A stretch of 64,000 bases of DNA from Rhizobium sp. RU33A (GTDB lineage: Bacteria; Pseudomonadota; Alphaproteobacteria; Rhizobiales; Rhizobiaceae). The stretch covers positions 186,001 to 250,000 of the forward strand of contig NZ_FTMQ01000003.1 in the NCBI RefSeq assembly GCF_900156055.1, read 5' to 3'. Of the stretch, positions 40,895-49,026 are shown in pieces (positions within the stretch are counted from its first letter, which is position 1; the number at the start of each line of letters is the position of its first letter). A program made the translations under genes and the position numbers. Under the pieces are notes generated by a model. The model was not told the DNA's origin, did not search any database, and worked only from the letters and a program-made list of their open reading frames with translations.

Positions 40895-42964
40895 TTAGCG
40901 GCCGAAGCGCAGGTCGTGCACGATATCGGTCTTCTGCCCGAGCCGGCTCTTGTAGACCTGGTAATTCTCCATCACCCGCATGACGTAGTTGCGCGTCTCG
41001 GGGAAGGGGATGCGCTCGATCCAGTCGACGACTTCGTCGATCGACTTGCCGCGCGGATCGCCGTAGCGCTCGATCCATTCAGGGACTTTGCGCGGGCCGG
41101 CATTATAGGCGATGAAGGTCATGATATAGGAGCCGCCGAAGGCGTCGATCTGCTCGCCGAGATAATGGGCACCAAGGGTCGCGTTGAAACCTGGATCGCG
41201 CGTCAGCTTCTCCGGTTGATAGGCAATGCCGTGGCGCGCCGCGACCCCTCGGGCCGTCGAGGGTAGGAGCTGCAGGAGGCCGCGCGCATCCGCCGGCGAG
41301 ATGGCGGCCGGGTTGAAGGCGCTTTCCTGCCGCGCGATCGCGTAAGCCAGCGCCTTGCCGGAGCCGGCGATATTTGCGCTTGCGGGAATGACACCGACGG
41401 GGAAGGCGAGCGCCGGCACGTCGATGCCGCGCGCGTACGCCGTCTTGCCGATCTGCAGCGACAATTGATGCCCGCCGGACGAGTTTTCTGCCCGCGCACT
41501 GAGCAGCGCCAGCTCACCCGGACTGTCGAGCTGGTCGGCCAGCGCCCGGTAAAGGCTCTGCGCCCGCCAGCCATGACCGGCCGCCTCGTAGCGGGCGATC
41601 GCCTGGACGGATTCGCGCTGGGTGAAGCGTGCCCGCTCATCTGCCGAGGGCTTCGGATAGGGAATCTGAATGCCCGGCCGATCGATGCGGGCGGCCGCAA
41701 GTTGCCCGTAAAAGGTACTGGAATGCTGGGCTGCACGGGCGAAGTGCTCGCGCGCCTTGCCGTCCTTGGATGCTTCCGAGGCGCGACCCAGCCAGTACCA
41801 GGCACGGCTTGCCGATAGCGGCCGGTTCGAGACCTCGAGAATGCGGGCGAAATGCCGGCCCGCAGTCTTCGGATCGTTGAGCGCGCGCAACGCATACCAG
41901 CCGGCATGGAACTCGGCGTCCGCGATATCCGTCGCTTCGGTTGCCACATGGCGGGAGACGATACGGTAGGCCTCGCGATACTGGCCGAGATCGGCAAGCC
42001 CGCGCGCAATGATCCGCTGCTCGTTCCACCAGGCGCGGCCACTGACCAGCTTGTCCCGCTCGCGCGGCATCTGTTCGAGAAGCTTTGCCGCTTCCTCGTA
42101 GCGCAGTTGCCGGCGCAGGTTTTCAATGCGGATATAGAGGAGGGCCGGGTCCTTGGCCCAGGATTTGTCGACGGCGGCAATCAGCGCATCGACATTTTTG
42201 GCGCGCGAATTCAGCCCCGCCCACGCGCGGTAGAGCGACTGCGCTTCACCCAGCGAGGCAAAACGCTTCGCCTGCGAGGCGCGGTCGCGATACATCAGAT
42301 AGTCCATGCGCGCCCGGTGATCGGTGGGGCGCAGCAGGGCGGAAAACTCCTTGATGATCCGGTCTTCCGCCGCCTCGTCCAGCGCATCGGTGCGCCAGAG
42401 CGTGCGGATCAGGCTCGCGGCCTTGGCCGTGTCACCGGAGGCTAGATGGGCGCGTGCGAGCAGCATCGTGCCTTCGGTGGTCTCCGGGGCCGTATCGCCA
42501 AAGGCGGAGAGAACGGCGGATGGCGCCGGATTTTCGCGGAAGAGCGCCTTTTCCGAATTGGCGCGGAAGGATTTGAGCCCCGGCCAGCCGGTAAGCTGCC
42601 GCTGGGCAGCGGCAATTTCGGCCGCCGGCACGTCGCGCAAGCCGGACATGGCGATCGACCAGGTCAACATCTGCCGGTCGAGCCCGGCGGGCATGCGGTC
42701 GCGGATCGCGATCGCCTGGGCGCCCTTGCGATCAGACAGAGCATCGAGGCCGGATTTCAGCTGCGGATTGGCCGCGGCCAGACGGTCGCCGCGCGGAATG
42801 GCGCCGGTGGTCTCGAGCGAGGGCGGCAAAGCCTTGCTCGGCGCAAAGCCTAGTGGCTTCATCGCCGGCACGGGCACGTCAGAAAGCGCTTGCGCACTCG
42901 TCGACGACAAGACCAGCGCAAGACCGAGACCGAGGACAGAACGATAAGGCAAAGACATCTTCAT
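40895..42964 (-). CDS. soluble lytic murein transglycosylase (Slt family)
   Basis: A 689-residue periplasmic protein with an N-terminal signal peptide (about 1-26, ending SAQA). A long superhelical region of TPR-like repeats (about 60-520) is followed by the lysozyme-like SLT domain: the catalytic glutamate is E547 in RQESAFNP, then SPADARGLLQLLPSTA and the AYNAGPRKVPEW motif. It cleaves the glycan strand with 1,6-anhydro product formation. It is divergent from dapA, the enzyme for the cross-linking residue meso-diaminopimelate. ATGs at 42982, 42964 and 42958 are possible; ribosome sites are weak. Confidence 0.93.
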   Translation of the reverse strand: MKMSLPYRSVLGLGLALVLSSTSAQALSDVPVPAMKPLGFAPSKALPPSLETTGAIPRGDRLAAANPQLKSGLDALSDRKGAQAIAIRDRMPAGLDRQMLTWSIAMSGLRDVPAAEIAAAQRQLTGWPGLKSFRANSEKALFRENPAPSAVLSAFGDTAPETTEGTMLLARAHLASGDTAKAASLIRTLWRTDALDEAAEDRIIKEFSALLRPTDHRARMDYLMYRDRASQAKRFASLGEAQSLYRAWAGLNSRAKNVDALIAAVDKSWAKDPALLYIRIENLRRQLRYEEAAKLLEQMPRERDKLVSGRAWWNEQRIIARGLADLGQYREAYRIVSRHVATEATDIADAEFHAGWYALRALNDPKTAGRHFARILEVSNRPLSASRAWYWLGRASEASKDGKAREHFARAAQHSSTFYGQLAAARIDRPGIQIPYPKPSADERARFTQRESVQAIARYEAAGHGWRAQSLYRALADQLDSPGELALLSARAENSSGGHQLSLQIGKTAYARGIDVPALAFPVGVIPASANIAGSGKALAYAIARQESAFNPAAISPADARGLLQLLPSTARGVAARHGIAYQPEKLTRDPGFNATLGAHYLGEQIDAFGGSYIMTFIAYNAGPRKVPEWIERYGDPRGKSIDEVVDWIERIPFPETRNYVMRVMENYQVYKSRLGQKTDIVHDLRFGR

Positions 42965-43187
42965 CCACACACCAGAACCCATGGCATCACACGAGAGAGT
43001 AGGCCGAGCACGCGGTTAACAAAAGCCTAAAGCCAGCGATCACATTCTCTCGAACGAAGCCTCGGAAAACTGTCACAAATCTCCTGCAGATGCGCTTGTC
43101 GCACCTGATGGTGCGAAGTAATGTGCCCCCGATTTAATCTGAGAATGCGGCCGAAGCGTGGATGTCGGCCCCCGAGGAGTTCATTGC

Positions 43188-44072
43188 ATGTATCAGGGAT
43201 CCATTCCCGCGCTTGTCACGCCCTTCACCGATCAGGGCGCCGTCGATGAGCAAGCCTTTGCCGCCCATGTCGAATGGCAGATTTCCGAAGGCTCCTCCGG
43301 TCTCGTGCCTGTCGGCACCACGGGTGAATCTCCGACACTCTCCCATGCCGAACACAAGCGCGTCGTCGAGCTCTGCGTCGAAGTCGCCGCCAAGCGCGTG
43401 CCCGTGATCGCTGGTGCAGGCTCCAACAACACATTGGAAGCCATCGAGCTTGCCCAGCATGCCGAAGCCGTCGGCGCCGATGCGCTGCTCGTGGTCACCC
43501 CCTATTACAACAAGCCGACCCAGAAGGGCCTGATCGCCCATTACAAGGCGATCGCCGAGGCCGTGTCGCTGCCGATCATCATCTACAACATCCCCGGCCG
43601 CTCGGTGATCGACATGTCGCCGGAGACGATGGGCGCGCTTGCGAAAGCCCACAAGAACATCGTCGGCGTCAAGGATGCGACCGGCAAGATCGAGCGCGTC
43701 TCCGAACAGCGCATCACCTGCGGTCCAGATTTCGTCCAGCTCTCGGGTGAAGACGCAACGGCGCTCGGCTTCAACGCCCATGGCGGCGTGGGCTGCATTT
43801 CCGTCACCGCCAATGTCGCGCCGCGCCTCTGTGCCGAATTCCAGGCCGCGACCCTGGCCGGCGACTATGCCAAGGCGCTGGAATATCAGGACCGCCTGAT
43901 GCCGCTGCACAAGGCGATCTTCCTGGAGCCCGGCCTCTGCGGCGCGAAATATGCGCTGAACCGCACCCGCGGCATGAACCGCACCGTCCGCCTGCCGCTC
44001 ATGGCGACGCTGGAGGCTTCGACAGAATCCGCGATCGACGCGGCGTTGAAGCATGCGGGACTGGTGAATTGA
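43188..44072 (+). CDS. dapA: 4-hydroxy-tetrahydrodipicolinate synthase
   Basis: A 294-residue aldolase-family enzyme that condenses pyruvate with aspartate semialdehyde, the first committed step to diaminopimelate and lysine. The pyruvate-binding GTTGE is at 43-47, the proton relay tyrosine is Y133 (IIYNIPGR) and the Schiff-base lysine is K162 (GVKDATG). AGGAG stands 8 bases before the ATG. In relatives it is followed directly by smpB; here about 4.4 kb are inserted between them. A near-ideal terminator closes the gene. Confidence 0.97.
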
Positions 44073-44081
44073 GGGAATGAC

Positions 44082-44109
44082 AAAGGCCGGCGGAAACGCC
44101 GGCTTTTTT
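44082..44109 (+). terminator. rho-independent terminator of dapA
   Basis: AAAGGCCGGCG (44082-44092) pairs with CGCCGGCTTTT (44097-44107) around a GAAA tetraloop, followed by T6 in total. It begins nine bases after the dapA stop. Confidence 0.92.
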
Positions 44110-44459
44110 GGTTGGGGTGCTTACGGCCCAGAGGGAGATGTTGAGCTTCTATGAGCCTTCGGTGGCATGGTTGCCGCATACAGCTCGCAATGCGGGGCCA
44201 CGGTAAAAGCGTCTCGGGAAAATTATACGCAGATGGTAAGACACGATCATCAGCGCCTACCCGTGGCACCTAGTCGTAGAGCGGGGCTGTCGGACGACAA
44301 TGCGGACCAGCGCCGATTTGCTATAGACGTTCGCTTATTCACACGAAATGTCTTTGCTGCCATTATCTCCCATTACGATGGGCTTATTCTAAAGCCGATG
44401 CGGTTAGGGAGTTGAGAAGCCGACTCGCCCGATGTAGGATGCTAGGATAAGGGGCAACC
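44110..44459. other. left flank of accessory block, 350 bp
   Basis: No accepted gene and no copy of the smpB leader seen here. The composition moves towards lower GC near 44300-44450. This stretch should contain the promoter for the ATPase-protease pair and the left junction of the insertion. Confidence 0.4.
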
Positions 44460-45386
44460 ATGTCACGATCAGGATCAAAATCATCCGCGGAGTCAGAAAA
44501 GGCTTCTGCCCTTAAGCCGCTTTTGGGTTCCAAATCTCGTTTCACCAGCGGTGAAACCCTCCCTCGACAGGCGTTTTCGCCGACAGGAAATATCTCTGGG
44601 CGTGCAGCTGAGTTCGTGGAATTCGTCGATCCGCAGCGCGACGTTCGTGAATTGGTGCTCTCCACCGAGGTTTCGCGGACGCTTTACGATGTTGCAGATG
44701 AATATCGTCACAGCGATGCTATTCGAAGCCATGGCTTGCCATTGCGTTCGCGGTTGCTGTTTTGTGGTCCACCCGGCTGTGGCAAGTCGCTCACCGCCGA
44801 GGTGCTCGCCAAGGAACTCGAGCTTCCATTCATGGTAGCCAAGCTCGATGCATTGATTGGGTCAATGCTTGGGGAGACAGCATCGAACCTGCGCCGCCTG
44901 TTTGATGCCGCTGAACGTCAAACCTCTATTCTGTTCCTCGACGAATTTGACGCCTTGGCCAGAACCAGGTCCGATCCAACCGAGCATAATGAAATGCGTA
45001 GGGTCGTTAATAATCTCCTGCTGATGATCGAGCGATTTAAAGGCCGTGGCTTTATAGTTGCGGCAACCAACCTTGAGTCGACAATTGATCCCGCGATTAT
45101 CCGTCGATTTGATGAAGTTGTTCTATTTGGGCGTCCGAGCGCGTCAGACATCCGCCGGCTGATCAAGTTCAAGACACGAAATTTTGGCCTAGAATTTGAT
45201 ATCGCTACTGATGCAAAGCAACTGGTCGGAAGAAGTCACTCCGATGTTGAGCGCATCTGCTATACCGCAATGCGTCACGCCATCATGCAGCGTCGCAAGA
45301 AGATATCGCGACTAGACTTCGATTACGCGATAAATTCCGATCGACGTCGGAAAGACATTCAGAGTAAGGTGAGCTCCTCTATTTGA
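44460..45386 (+). CDS. ietA: AAA ATPase, IetA-like
   Basis: A 308-residue AAA+ protein. A basic, Ser-rich N-terminus (about 1-45) precedes the ATPase domain with Walker A GPPGCGKS (103-110, K109), Walker B ILFLDEFDA (D161, E162), sensor-1 VAATNLE and an arginine finger in IIRRFDE. A small helical lid follows. With the downstream S8 protease it matches the IetA-IetS module, in which the ATPase is the antitoxin for the protease, first described on an Agrobacterium Ti plasmid and later listed as an anti-phage system. AAGGGG is 5 bases before the ATG. Base composition is less GC-rich than its neighbours, which supports transfer. Confidence 0.88.
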   Translation: MSRSGSKSSAESEKASALKPLLGSKSRFTSGETLPRQAFSPTGNISGRAAEFVEFVDPQRDVRELVLSTEVSRTLYDVADEYRHSDAIRSHGLPLRSRLLFCGPPGCGKSLTAEVLAKELELPFMVAKLDALIGSMLGETASNLRRLFDAAERQTSILFLDEFDALARTRSDPTEHNEMRRVVNNLLLMIERFKGRGFIVAATNLESTIDPAIIRRFDEVVLFGRPSASDIRRLIKFKTRNFGLEFDIATDAKQLVGRSHSDVERICYTAMRHAIMQRRKKISRLDFDYAINSDRRRKDIQSKVSSSI

Positions 45387-45398
45387 TAGGGGGTATTC

Positions 45399-47756
45399 TT
45401 GGTACGCCGACCTCACCTGACACTTCGCCGCCTTGAGGGCCAACTCGAACGACGCAAGAAACCTGGCTTCGGAAGCGCGCCACCAAGAAATCATGTGTTG
45501 CACGGTGGCCAACTGGGTCTTCAGCTCGCTCAGATCGTTCAGCGGAACGCTGCGCGCGATGCCGAGCGCGTCGATGAGCCCGTTTCCGATCCCACGGTCA
45601 TTCTGAAAATTACTACGGCTGGTTATATCGGCGAAGATGCGCTGGCCGGGGTTGGGCTGCAAATCCTTGAGCAGCGCTCGGACGACGTCACCGTGGCTCT
45701 ATCAGTCGATCCAAACCTCACGGTTCTACAGGAGAGATCACAGCAATATGCAGGCCCCATTCCCGTAACCCAGACCGGTGCTAGGCATGCTGGCCTCTTC
45801 GGCGTCATCGACAGCTTTGACGAGCTATCTGCTAACGACAAAATTGGCAGTGCACTGGCTAGGCATGGTTTTGCAACGACAGAGATGATTCCGGACGGTG
45901 ATGTCGTTCTGATCGATGTCGAGCTTTGGGACGTAAACGAAGATCTGCTGCGTGAGCTTTATGTTAATCGCGTCGCCCGAAAGGCCGAGGAGTTTGGCGG
46001 CGAGCTCCTCAGCCGTTATCGTGGTGCAGGGCTCTTTGTCGCCCGTGTGCGAGTTCCCGGCGCCGGGTTGAAAGAACTACTGGCAATGGCTGAAGTTGCC
46101 TGGATCGACCTACCCCCAGTGCCAGACTTTGCCCCCGAACCGGCAGCAAATCTGACGGTGACTGAACTTCCACCGATAAACCCGCCATCAGCGAATGCTG
46201 TTTGTATTGGGATTGTCGATTCCGGAATTACAGCGGCCCATCCAATGCTCGACGGCGTCATCGCCGGGACATTTGGTGTCCCTAATCAGCTCGGGAGCGA
46301 TGATGAAAAACGTCATGGCACCTCCGTTGCGGCTCTTGCGACCTACGGATCGATTGCCGAGCAGATTTCTCAGAATGTTTTGGCACCCCGGTTTCGAATT
46401 GCCAGCGCCAAGGTTGTAGATGCGAATGGCCATTTTGACGAAGAGCGTACAGTCGCCGACATTGTCGAGGAGGCAATTCGACGGCTCAACGCAGAATATG
46501 GTTGTCGGGTGATCAACATATCTCTCGCTGATCGCGAACACATCGTTGGAGGGCGCCCATCGAACTGGGCGATGATGCTTGATAATCTGGTCCGTGAGCT
46601 CGGCATCGTCGTTACCGTTTCAGCGGGCAATATCCTGGATATAAGCCAGCGCATCGAGGATCAGGGCGTCGGCATTTATCCTGAGTATTTGCTTGAAGAC
46701 GAGCACAGGCTCTATGAACCGGCCAGTTCGATGAACTCGCTTGTTGTGGGATCACTAGCTCATTCCAATGGCCTCATGCCGGGAGAAGAGGGTGAAGCCG
46801 ACATCGTGGCTTTGACAGCCACACATCATCCATCGCCCTTCAGCCGATGCGGACCTGGTTTTGCCAAGAGTATCAAACCCGACTTAGTCGAATATGGTGG
46901 TACTGCCGTGTGGCGGGGATTCTCATCCAGGCTGTCGGCTGATCGCGACAGCTGCGGCGTTCTAACGCTCAACCCGAATTATCTGCAAAGTCTAATGGTT
47001 TATCGTCATGGAACCTCTTTTGCGGCTCCCGTTGCCGCCTATAAGGCAGCTGCGCTCTTGGAGGAATTTCCTGATTCCAGCGCAAATTTTATCAGGGCCT
47101 TGATGGGGTTGAGTGCGGATCACCCAGCCGAATTGAAAGAACGGGTTACCTCTCATGGCGGCCGCGAGCATTTCAGATACGCGGGTTACGGCGTGGCAGA
47201 TGTCAGTCTTGCCGAAGCTTCGGAAGACAATCGTGTGGTTATGGCCATCGAGGACAGCCTCCCGATCAATCGATTTGCTGTCTACGAAGTGCCTATTCCA
47301 ACCGATTTCCAAACAGTCAACGGCGTTCGGCATATCAAGGTATCGCTAGCCTTTGACCCGCCGGTGCGGAACAGCCGGAAGGAATATTTGGGCGTCAAAA
47401 TGGGTTATCACTTGGTGCGGGGGAAGTCGGCCGAAGAGGTTTTTGCCAGGTTCCGAAAATGGGAGGCTGAAGAAAAAGAAGAAAATGGCGGCGCCGCAGT
47501 TTTCGAAAACGGTTCAGCGATTTGCAAAATGAACCCTTTGGCCACCATGCAGGAGGCTGGAAGCCTTCAGGTTGGGACATTTGTCGCCAAGCGCAACATC
47601 TCAAGTTACGGTGACAGCTACTATCTTGTCGTCCGGTGTGAAGGAAAATGGGCTGCCAACCTATTAGAGGAGCAGACATTTTCTGTGGCTGTCGAGTTAT
47701 GGCACGAGGCCGAGCTTGCGCTCTATCAGCAGGTCGCCGTCGTTCTAAGCGCGTAA
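45399..47756 (+). CDS. ietS: S8 subtilisin-like serine protease, IetS-like
   Basis: A 785-residue protein. An N-terminal domain of about 260 residues without signal peptide comes before a subtilisin domain with the complete triad: D274 (GIVDSGI), H306 (KRHGTSVAAL) and S540 (YRHGTSFAAP), plus oxyanion N411 (VSAGN). A C-terminal domain (about 590-785) with beta-rich pattern follows. The lack of a signal peptide points to a cytoplasmic protease, as in IetS. The start is a TTG at 45399 with GGGGG 5 bases upstream; this overlaps the IetA stop region by 12-base spacing, so translation is coupled. Weak initiation would keep toxin below antitoxin. The stop is only nine bases before a duplicated smpB leader. 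Confidence 0.88.
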   Translation: MVRRPHLTLRRLEGQLERRKKPGFGSAPPRNHVLHGGQLGLQLAQIVQRNAARDAERVDEPVSDPTVILKITTAGYIGEDALAGVGLQILEQRSDDVTVALSVDPNLTVLQERSQQYAGPIPVTQTGARHAGLFGVIDSFDELSANDKIGSALARHGFATTEMIPDGDVVLIDVELWDVNEDLLRELYVNRVARKAEEFGGELLSRYRGAGLFVARVRVPGAGLKELLAMAEVAWIDLPPVPDFAPEPAANLTVTELPPINPPSANAVCIGIVDSGITAAHPMLDGVIAGTFGVPNQLGSDDEKRHGTSVAALATYGSIAEQISQNVLAPRFRIASAKVVDANGHFDEERTVADIVEEAIRRLNAEYGCRVINISLADREHIVGGRPSNWAMMLDNLVRELGIVVTVSAGNILDISQRIEDQGVGIYPEYLLEDEHRLYEPASSMNSLVVGSLAHSNGLMPGEEGEADIVALTATHHPSPFSRCGPGFAKSIKPDLVEYGGTAVWRGFSSRLSADRDSCGVLTLNPNYLQSLMVYRHGTSFAAPVAAYKAAALLEEFPDSSANFIRALMGLSADHPAELKERVTSHGGREHFRYAGYGVADVSLAEASEDNRVVMAIEDSLPINRFAVYEVPIPTDFQTVNGVRHIKVSLAFDPPVRNSRKEYLGVKMGYHLVRGKSAEEVFARFRKWEAEEKEENGGAAVFENGSAICKMNPLATMQEAGSLQVGTFVAKRNISSYGDSYYLVVRCEGKWAANLLEEQTFSVAVELWHEAELALYQQVAVVLSA

Positions 47757-47764
47757 GGATAGCG

Positions 47765-47894
47765 CCTTTATTCCTCCCCATCCTCTATTTCACACGCATG
47801 ACAACCGCCACGCCCCGCCCGGGCGCAGGCGATCGACGCCAAAATCCCGGGCGAAACGGAAGATTTGACCATGGCCCCCAGAGGCTCGCATCTC
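47765..47894 (+). repeat. duplicated smpB leader, upstream copy
   Basis: About 130 bp matching 48443-48573 with scattered mismatches and one single-base indel. Two blocks are identical: 47807-47832 with 48486-48511 (26 bp) and 47841-47890 with 48520-48569 (50 bp), at a constant offset of 679. Confidence 0.9.
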
Positions 47895-47915
47895 ACCCTC
47901 GTGCCCAAAAGATAA
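47871..47915 (+). pseudogene. truncated smpB 5' end (14 codons)
   Basis: The ATG at 47871 is followed by MAPRGS, identical in sequence to the true SmpB start, then the frame departs (HLTLVPKR) and stops at 47915. The same ribosome site GGAAG is present, so a 14-residue peptide could still be made. It is a remnant left by duplication or insertion at smpB. Confidence 0.8.
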
Positions 47916-47942
47916 CGGCAGGTCACCAAAGGTAACCTGCCG
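47916..47942 (-). terminator. hairpin after the secreted-protein gene
   Basis: CGGCAGGT (47916-47923) pairs with ACCTGCCG (47935-47942), extended by ACC/GGT around AAA with one mismatch. Read on the minus strand it is followed by TTATCTTTT, so it probably ends the minus-strand gene. Confidence 0.65.
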
Positions 47943-47969
47943 CTTCAAAACGCACTGGCGAGAAACCGC

Positions 47970-48314
47970 TCAGAACTCGAGCTCAAGACCGTTTTCACAG
48001 AAGTCGAACTGAGCAGGTTCCGATTCACTGCCGTCTGCATACGTGGCCTTGACCCACTGCGCGCAGCTTTCGCCATTTGTGCTCTGATCCCAGACGAGAT
48101 CTGCAGTCGATCCCGGCTTGATGCCGCTTCCAACGTTGAAAGCACCCCAGGTGCTCTTGTCTTCGGACACCAGGATCCCGGTGATGGCCGAACTGGTCGT
48201 GTTCGTCGCCTTGAAAGAGAACTCATCCGCATGGGCAGCAACAACGGTCATCCCGCTTGCCGCCGCCCCAAGGGCGATTGCCAGTAGACCGTTTCGAACG
48301 TGTTGGAGATTCAT
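47970..48314 (-). CDS. small secreted hypothetical protein between smpB-leader repeats
   Basis: A 114-residue exported protein. Residues 1-29 form a Sec signal peptide (MNLQHVRNGLLAIALGAAAS, ending AAHADE). The mature part contains FSFKATNTTSSAITGILVSE, a tryptophan-rich WGAFNVG and LVWDQST, and two cysteines (C84 and C106) in SCAQWV and FDFCENG, so one disulfide is likely. The fold looks like a small beta-sandwich; no function is known to me. It lies exactly between the two smpB-leader copies, on the opposite strand to smpB. Confidence 0.75.
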   Translation of the reverse strand: MNLQHVRNGLLAIALGAAASGMTVVAAHADEFSFKATNTTSSAITGILVSEDKSTWGAFNVGSGIKPGSTADLVWDQSTNGESCAQWVKATYADGSESEPAQFDFCENGLELEF

Positions 48315-48442
48315 GGTCTGTCCTCAGATCGGTGGGAATGTAACATCAGACTTTCTGGCACTGTCAGTCCTGAAAGTCGACGGAATAAACGCGGCTTTCA
48401 GGCGCCACCTGCCGGGCGGTTCATGTGCTCGATCCACCCCCA

Positions 48443-48573
48443 CCTTTATTTCCCCCCCATCCTCCATTACATATCCCTGACAACAGCCACGCCCCGCCCG
48501 GGCGCAGGCGACACACGACAAAATCCCGGGCGAAACGGAAGATTTGACCATGGCCCCCAGAGGCTCGCAGCGC
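48443..48573 (+). repeat. smpB leader, downstream (native) copy
   Basis: Partner of the repeat at 47765-47894; here it leads into the intact smpB gene. Confidence 0.9.
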
Positions 48574-49026
48574 ACCATCAACAAGATCGTCGCGGAAAAC
48601 CGCAAGGCGCGCTTCAATTATGAGATCATCGACACCTACGAGGCCGGTCTGGTTTTGACCGGCACGGAGGTCAAGTCGCTGCGCGAGGGCAAGGCCAATA
48701 TCGCCGAATCCTATGCCTCGGATGAGGGCGAGGAGATCTGGCTGATCAATTCGCATCTGCCGGAATATCTGCAGGCGAACCGCTTCAATCACGAGCCGCG
48801 CCGCCGTCGCAAGCTCTTGTTGTCCAAGCGCGAGATCAACCGCCTGCGCGTCTCGATCAATCGTGAGGGCATGACGCTGGTGCCCTTGAAGATCTATTTC
48901 AACGAGAAGGGCAGGGCGAAGCTGGAGCTGGCGCTCGCCAAGGGCAAGAAGCTGCATGACAAGCGCGAGACCGAGAAGGAACGCGACTGGAACCGCCAGA
49001 AGCAGCGCATTCTGAAGACGGGTTGA
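48550..49026 (+). CDS. smpB: SsrA-binding protein
   Basis: A 158-residue SmpB, the partner of tmRNA in trans-translation rescue of stalled ribosomes. The fold signatures are present: [19 protein letters not shown] at the start, [25 protein letters not shown] and a C-terminal basic tail ([20 protein letters not shown]) that enters the ribosomal A site. GGAAG lies 8 bases before the ATG. Length is normal. The next gene begins two bases after its stop, so they are co-translated. The leader is duplicated 679 bases upstream. Confidence 0.97.

Follow-up and report, generated by a model that had tools for sequence, protein, structure and literature searches.

The ietAS pair of pTiC58 is said, in papers citing the 2009 work of Yamamoto and colleagues, to be a toxin-antitoxin system, and phage defense by ietAS was reportedly described by Gao and colleagues in 2020. 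Two further protease-ATPase pairs are available for comparison. In sgiAT of Salmonella Genomic Island 1, according to the part of the article available to us, an ATPase antitoxin neutralizes a toxic protease (PMC5006074), and the accessible text on Mycoplasma TA132/3 likewise describes a toxic protease that is neutralized by an ATPase (PMC8562856). As to how accessory genes are exchanged, an extract of Oliveira et al. (2017; PMC5635113) describes many hotspots that lack mobile elements and have frequent recombination at the flanking core genes, and a partial text on the T6SS immunity arrays of V. cholerae proposes one-sided entry, with remnants of earlier occupants left in place (PMC5361080). 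Here, we studied a 64,000-nucleotide stretch of the Rhizobium sp. RU33A genome (the window; NZ_FTMQ01000003.1, positions 186,001 to 250,000) that carries such a pair between dapA and smpB. While the pair is a member of a family already described, our addition is a hotspot between dapA and smpB with mixed, partly defensive cargo. The accessible portions of the literature on smpB or dapA hotspots, genomic islands, and defense in Peteryoungia or Rhizobiaceae contained no description of this site.

The initial annotation placed an ATPase gene and a protease gene between dapA and smpB, and both are present there and open (Table 1). They are separated by 12 nt, and because the same spacing and ietS start position recur in Peteryoungia wuzhouensis (TTG) and in a Hoeflea bin (GTG), the TTG start of ietS is supported. 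The excess of antitoxin first read from TTG in ietS and ATG in ietA would be a prediction from these start codons. Cargo starts 3' of the dapA terminator, as it does, by eye, in most filled relatives. The distance from dapA to smpB is 4477 bp. An insert of ~4.4 kb had been described; the pair is part of it as claimed, but from 47771 onward the space is filled by an smpB 5' fragment and a minus-strand ORF of 114 aa. Both this smpB-leader scar and the small reverse-strand gene had been overlooked. The pair is also, as first described, less GC-rich than its neighbors, with a GC3 of 52-55% for ietA and ietS versus 79-85% for slt, dapA, and smpB; across 48 mechanically chosen window ORFs the mean GC3 is 69.8 (sd 9.8), and several are as low as the IetAS pair. 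The ~316 nt upstream of ietA (44144-44459) are common to the Hoeflea and P. wuzhouensis copies and contain indels among them, so that a coding frame is unlikely there, and this leader is possibly regulatory. The single match in an Rfam scan, at the dapA terminator, fell under the gathering score and thus gave no RNA element, and inspection by eye found no consistent pair of terminal inverted repeats of the cargo. The names slt, priA, relA, rpoZ, and NYN used below are our reading of the sequences rather than the product of a family scan.

Table 1. Features of the dapA-smpB region, in window coordinates
Feature	Position	Strand	Description
dapA	43158..44072	+	left flank of hotspot; Pfam DHDPS 6.5e-92
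dapA terminator (hairpin + T run)	44087..44109	+	read from sequence
IetAS unit common to Hoeflea	44144..47782	+	~316 nt leader + ietA + ietS + 26 nt tail
ietA	44460..45386	+	ATG; AAA ATPase, 308 aa, putative antitoxin
ietS	45399..47756	+	TTG; S8 subtilase, 785 aa, putative toxin/effector
Scar: decayed duplicate of smpB leader + first codons	47771..47900	+	130-nt direct repeat, 88% identical to 48450..48579
Small ORF, 114 aa	47970..48314	-	no family match; older gap resident in clade
Border box CCTTTATTTCCCCCCCATCCTCCATTACAT ahead of smpB	48443..48472	+	probably within smpB promoter region
Intact repeat copy: smpB leader + first codons	48450..48579	+	partner of scar 47771..47900
smpB	48550..49026	+	right flank of hotspot; ATG checked; Pfam SmpB 1.7e-59

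The match to IetAS proposed at the outset holds at the level of the family. IetA matches the PADLOC IetA model PDLC02196 at 2e-72, with three further IetA models also matching, and IetS matches PDLC02198 at 1.9e-115 over residues 50-783; Pfam assigns AAA (4.9e-32) and Peptidase_S8 (1.4e-32), respectively, and ietA precedes ietS, as in relatives with both genes matched. Closeness to the anti-phage proteins named by NCBI did not stand, as the curated cut-offs are missed widely: 201.5 bits against 510 for NCBIfam IteA (NF042959) and 116.4 bits against 900 for IteS (NF042956). By these matches, we place the pair in IetAS in the broad sense, outside the narrow NCBIfam anti-phage equivalog group. 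Its active sites are complete, as first claimed, with K109 (Walker A), D161, and E162 in IetA, the Walker residues being invariant among seven aligned IetA sequences, and D274, H306, N411, and S540 in IetS, invariant among nine. The predicted structure of IetS has a mean pLDDT of 58, and the 50 Foldseek matches listed for it are subtilase-fold entries; a search by sequence recognized no solved IetAS structure. Phage defense by this pair, and its toxicity, are what the family would predict.

The pair is sparsely distributed. At E<=1e-30, PDLC02198 finds 13 of 394 family genomes (a sample that falls short of the whole genus), and at E<=1e-40, four of 385 sampled genomes of the class, our genome being included in both counts. 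Such a sporadic occurrence in the family, together with the deviant GC3 and transfer between genera, makes it very improbable that the protease serves in housekeeping quality control alongside a Cdc48-like ATPase, a role suggested by the p97/Cdc48 D1 ATPase being the solved structure nearest to IetA by sequence. An IetAS relative occurs in 487 plasmid records, the nearest, on an Agrobacterium tumefaciens plasmid, at 70.8% protein identity; the plasmid collection held no near-identical DNA, and a plasmid origin of the insert was set aside. A phage origin was set aside as well, with partial protein matches in four phage records, none covering 80%. Another homologue, at L070:1624-4635 (L numbers are our handles for loci), has its ietS frame in pieces and ietA open, possibly through an assembly error.

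The site itself proved to be the more informative feature. In a family sample of 131 genomes, dapA and smpB matches lie on one contig and strand in 124, and the matched ends are 2-365 bp apart in all 122 that belong to other genera; our genome has them 4480 bp apart, and one further member of its genus 229 bp. The initial annotation was therefore right to see an insertion between normally adjacent genes, and gap content is ruled out as a conserved feature of the family. Within the genus, the smpB start is present in 60 of 63 sampled genomes, the window included. The gap is empty in 32 of these (107-226 bp) and filled in 28 (834-5681 bp), one of the filled gaps (L019) ending at a contig end, so that its length is a minimum. 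When the filled and empty states are mapped by Fitch parsimony onto a 58-tip tree built from dapA and smpB, five changes are counted, and the main clade of 21 tips (support 0.81), to which the window belongs, is filled throughout. IetAS occupies two of the 60 gaps, those of the window and of P. wuzhouensis (Rhizobium wuzhouensis; L065). The pair is thus not a conserved part of the family's dapA-smpB gaps, the outcome that had been named as counting against an accessory locus, and its absence from most gaps bears the accessory status out. With the same core-gene flanks, variable cargo, and empty sites in other genomes, dapA-smpB is a hotspot, and among the sampled genomes it is confined to one genus of the Rhizobiaceae.

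Cargo differs almost every time among the 28 filled gaps. Among 61 cargo ORFs of at least 150 aa that were taken mechanically from the gaps, the kinds found in more than one genome number three (proteasome-like, cupin, and IetS), a fourth recurrence link being a reading across the small gene. A PADLOC scan of 40 of 54 selected cargo ORFs gave strong matches (E<=1e-24) in six filled gaps; with the window and L019, these make eight of the 28, a plain count for which we claim no enrichment. The six contain a Drt6-type reverse transcriptase (L005, 4.4e-141), PifA (L012, 6.5e-74), PD-Lambda-2 (L013, 2.9e-45), the candidate system PDC-M41/M30 (L020, PDC-M41B at 9.4e-102), a DpdB-like protein beside a DNA methyltransferase (L023, DpdB at 8.6e-25), and Dsr1 (L028, 9.6e-137). 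Weak matches were seen in L015 (CHAT, 9.7e-9) and L027 (CapP, 5.6e-19); those in L010 and L024 (mad2 and PDC-S07) were read as generic methyltransferase or NUDIX matches and left out of the count. Other cargo belongs to non-defense families: TetR/DUF418, AraC with a dehydrogenase, a chemotaxis receptor, GGDEF, an autotransporter, a flavin oxidoreductase, TelA, and a GFA enzyme. A Pfam scan that covered 48 of the 54 ORFs and, in addition, a pair of IS genes from L013 found no mobile-island integrase, the two IS transposases being the sole recombinases among these 50 ORFs. The proteasome-like gene (L007:4223-5152, L008:4252-5154, and L010:11058-11927; 79-93% identical), in which the proteasome-subunit domain was matched in L007 and L008, is a possible unknown defense gene.

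This company bears on what the pair might be for. Like ietAS of pTiC58 and sgiAT of SGI1, it could be an addiction or stability module of its chromosomal segment, with no phage role. We hold this to be possible while expecting otherwise: sgiAT and Mycoplasma TA132/3 are, in the available parts of the reports, demonstrated toxin-antitoxin pairs (PMC5006074, PMC8562856), and the broken ietS beside an open ietA in L070 would be expected if the protease alone were costly, assembly error aside, but a unit of 3.6 kb that brings no further cargo would have little in a chromosome to stabilize, and neighboring genomes fill the same site with several anti-phage-type genes.

The occupation of one site in two species could in principle reflect inheritance of IetAS from the common ancestor of our species and P. 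wuzhouensis, and the silent-site identities of dapA, ietA, and ietS between them are similar (75-78%). We consider such an ancestry improbable. Identity at fourfold sites between the window and P. wuzhouensis is 51.1% for priA and 58.4% for slt, as against 75.5% for dapA, 76.7% for ietA, 77.9% for the part of ietS compared, and 88.9% for smpB, and 14 genomes whose slt is nearer to the window's than the P. wuzhouensis slt have no IetAS in the gap. The same measure against Hoeflea gives 48.2% for priA, 74.2% for ietA, and 71.4% for ietS. Because the silent sites of the pair are more alike than those of priA or slt, we conclude that IetAS moved between lineages after they split; the silent sites support such a transfer of the unit. 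The Hoeflea locus (L064) matches the window over 44144-47782 only, at 87.6%, and sits just after a host ORF read as priA, ending in CCTTTGTTTCC. The other end of the L019 assembly (L071) is identical to the P. wuzhouensis locus over 2772 bp and shows the order dapA-ietA-ietS.

Whether the flanks travel along is a separate matter. The dapA identity of 75.5% to P. wuzhouensis is no mark of joint transfer, because it is equaled by clade members without IetAS (about 69-82% to the window, with L016 at 60%). Throughout the filled clade, dapA and smpB nevertheless lie 10.9 and 9.1 points above the prediction from four other genes fitted on empty-site genomes, in 20 of 20 genomes, compared with 2.8 for rpoZ and -6.8 for an upstream gene. 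When corrected for composition and matched on slt at 50-60%, filled versus empty sites give 0.52 versus 0.37 for dapA and 0.71 versus 0.52 for smpB, and 0.39 versus 0.38 for relA, 0.37 versus 0.30 for NYN, and 0.50 versus 0.51 for rpoZ, from 89 and 23 pairs that are non-independent; filled versus empty here amounts to one main clade. In that clade, dapA and smpB may change more slowly. A tree test within it found no extra topological conflict for dapA as a sign of exchange: the gene in least disagreement with the rest is dapA (AU p 0.035; 2.8 lnL per 100 sites), and smpB disagrees most per site (31), with slt at 27 and 16. As an observation in its own right, slt (40895-42982) is in strong conflict with its neighboring genes in this test. 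Taking the sequence comparisons together, exchange through the dapA and smpB flanks is likely.

Several gaps retain traces of earlier joints. An smpB 5' scar is present in seven of the 28 filled gaps (L006, L007, L011, L012, L013, L017, and the window), and dapA 3' copies occur in L009 (84 nt, 92%) and L055 (112 nt, 80%), alongside a 45-nt match in L015; two short dapA-end matches at E 0.01, of 18 nt in L014 and 14 nt in L034, are not counted as scars. Six genomes share one junction between the scar and the small ORF, of which L005 keeps a trace by eye, and the DNA 5' of it is an autotransporter in L006, the proteasome-like gene plus another in L007, almost nothing in L011, PifA in L012, PD-Lambda-2 in L013, and IetAS in the window. 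In P. wuzhouensis the smpB box CCTTTATTT starts 8 nt 3' of the ietS stop, and in the window the CCTTTATT of the scar starts 8 nt 3' of the ietS stop, from which we infer that the scar descends from an smpB start formerly placed immediately behind cargo. Homologues of the small ORF (69-96%) occupy the same place by smpB in L005, L006, L007, L009, L011, L012, and L013; its 114-aa product has a signal-peptide-like N terminus, by eye, and no Pfam, PADLOC, or NCBIfam match.

What plain homology chiefly leaves unexplained is the right-hand border. Of the 28 filled sites, 27 have the core CCTTTATTTCC 104-109 nt 5' of smpB, and the remaining one, L024, has a variant; none of 32 empty sites has it, its position there being taken by the terminator's T run behind dapA. 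This distribution lends weight to site-directed insertion at the dapA terminator/smpB promoter border by an enzyme supplied in trans, and lowers an explanation by homology. About five fillings account for the sites with CCTTTATTTCC, one of which (L034) has the motif despite a leader that otherwise resembles those of its empty relatives, and the Hoeflea unit also starts just past a host gene and ends in CCTTTGTTTCC. Insertion of this kind is nonetheless rather unlikely in our estimation: recombinases in the scanned cargo are limited to the IS transposases of L013; the long box CCTTTATTTCCCCCCCATCCTCCATTACAT (up to 3 mismatches) is found in 24 of 63 genus genomes as a single copy at smpB, and so was rejected as a genome-wide site; and a conserved smpB promoter, or homologous exchange of the right end, could yield the same border. 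The border is either a conserved smpB promoter region of the filled lineages or a right end that the cargo carries with it. Tentatively, and against our own expectation, the cargo might consist of integrase-free units that share the right end CCTTTATTTCC and join at the terminator/promoter border, with leader copies inside the gap serving as new homology arms that make the site a self-maintaining swap point; the Hoeflea copy ending in CCTTTGTTTCC would then represent such a unit, the same one, in a different location.

Our preferred reading, to which we give a probability of roughly 0.58, is that IetAS is a toxin-antitoxin/defense operon carried as cargo of an integrase-free dapA-smpB hotspot and swapped by recombination in the flanks, with IetA restraining IetS. 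We infer the route as follows. DNA from a related species would recombine through dapA at the left and, at the right, through either the smpB leader or one of its scars, replacing the earlier cargo. One end would sometimes join illegitimately, stacking old and new cargo and leaving inside a duplicate 5' end of smpB (47771-47900 in the window) or, in some relatives, a duplicate 3' end of dapA. In a healthy cell IetA probably keeps the protease IetS in check, a step drawn from the analogy with sgiAT and Mycoplasma TA132/3, and IetS might be freed to cleave cell proteins when a phage infects or the locus is lost, so that growth stops.

A hotspot that is small (0.8-5.7 kb), easily scanned, and set between two core genes offers a short list for defense discovery, as the 28 gaps hold genes of several established anti-phage types along with many that are uncharacterized, such as the proteasome-like genes of L007, L008, and L010. 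Further, the leader scars and the fixed border make integrase-free gene swapping testable. Among described systems, the pair is closest to IetAS, with which it shares gene order, the combination of an AAA ATPase with an S8 protease, and nearly full-length PADLOC matches; relatives are known from plasmids, whereas the pair in the window is chromosomal and lies between core genes. It falls under the NCBIfam IteA and IteS cut-offs, and its likeness to the pTiC58 pair is judged through the PADLOC models. Its likeness to sgiAT and Mycoplasma TA132/3, as far as their accessible descriptions go, is one of two-protein design, and they have other carriers and hosts. The hotspots without mobile elements in the available text of PMC5635113 resemble the site in their core-gene flanks, fast cargo turnover, and general lack of an integrase; what sets dapA-smpB apart from that text is the site itself, its restriction to one genus in our sample, the scars of the smpB leader, and a border motif that stays fixed. 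In the V. cholerae arrays, in the part of the account at hand, homology-facilitated illegitimate recombination is likewise proposed to leave remnants, but at dapA-smpB the remnant is a copy of the leader of a flanking core gene.
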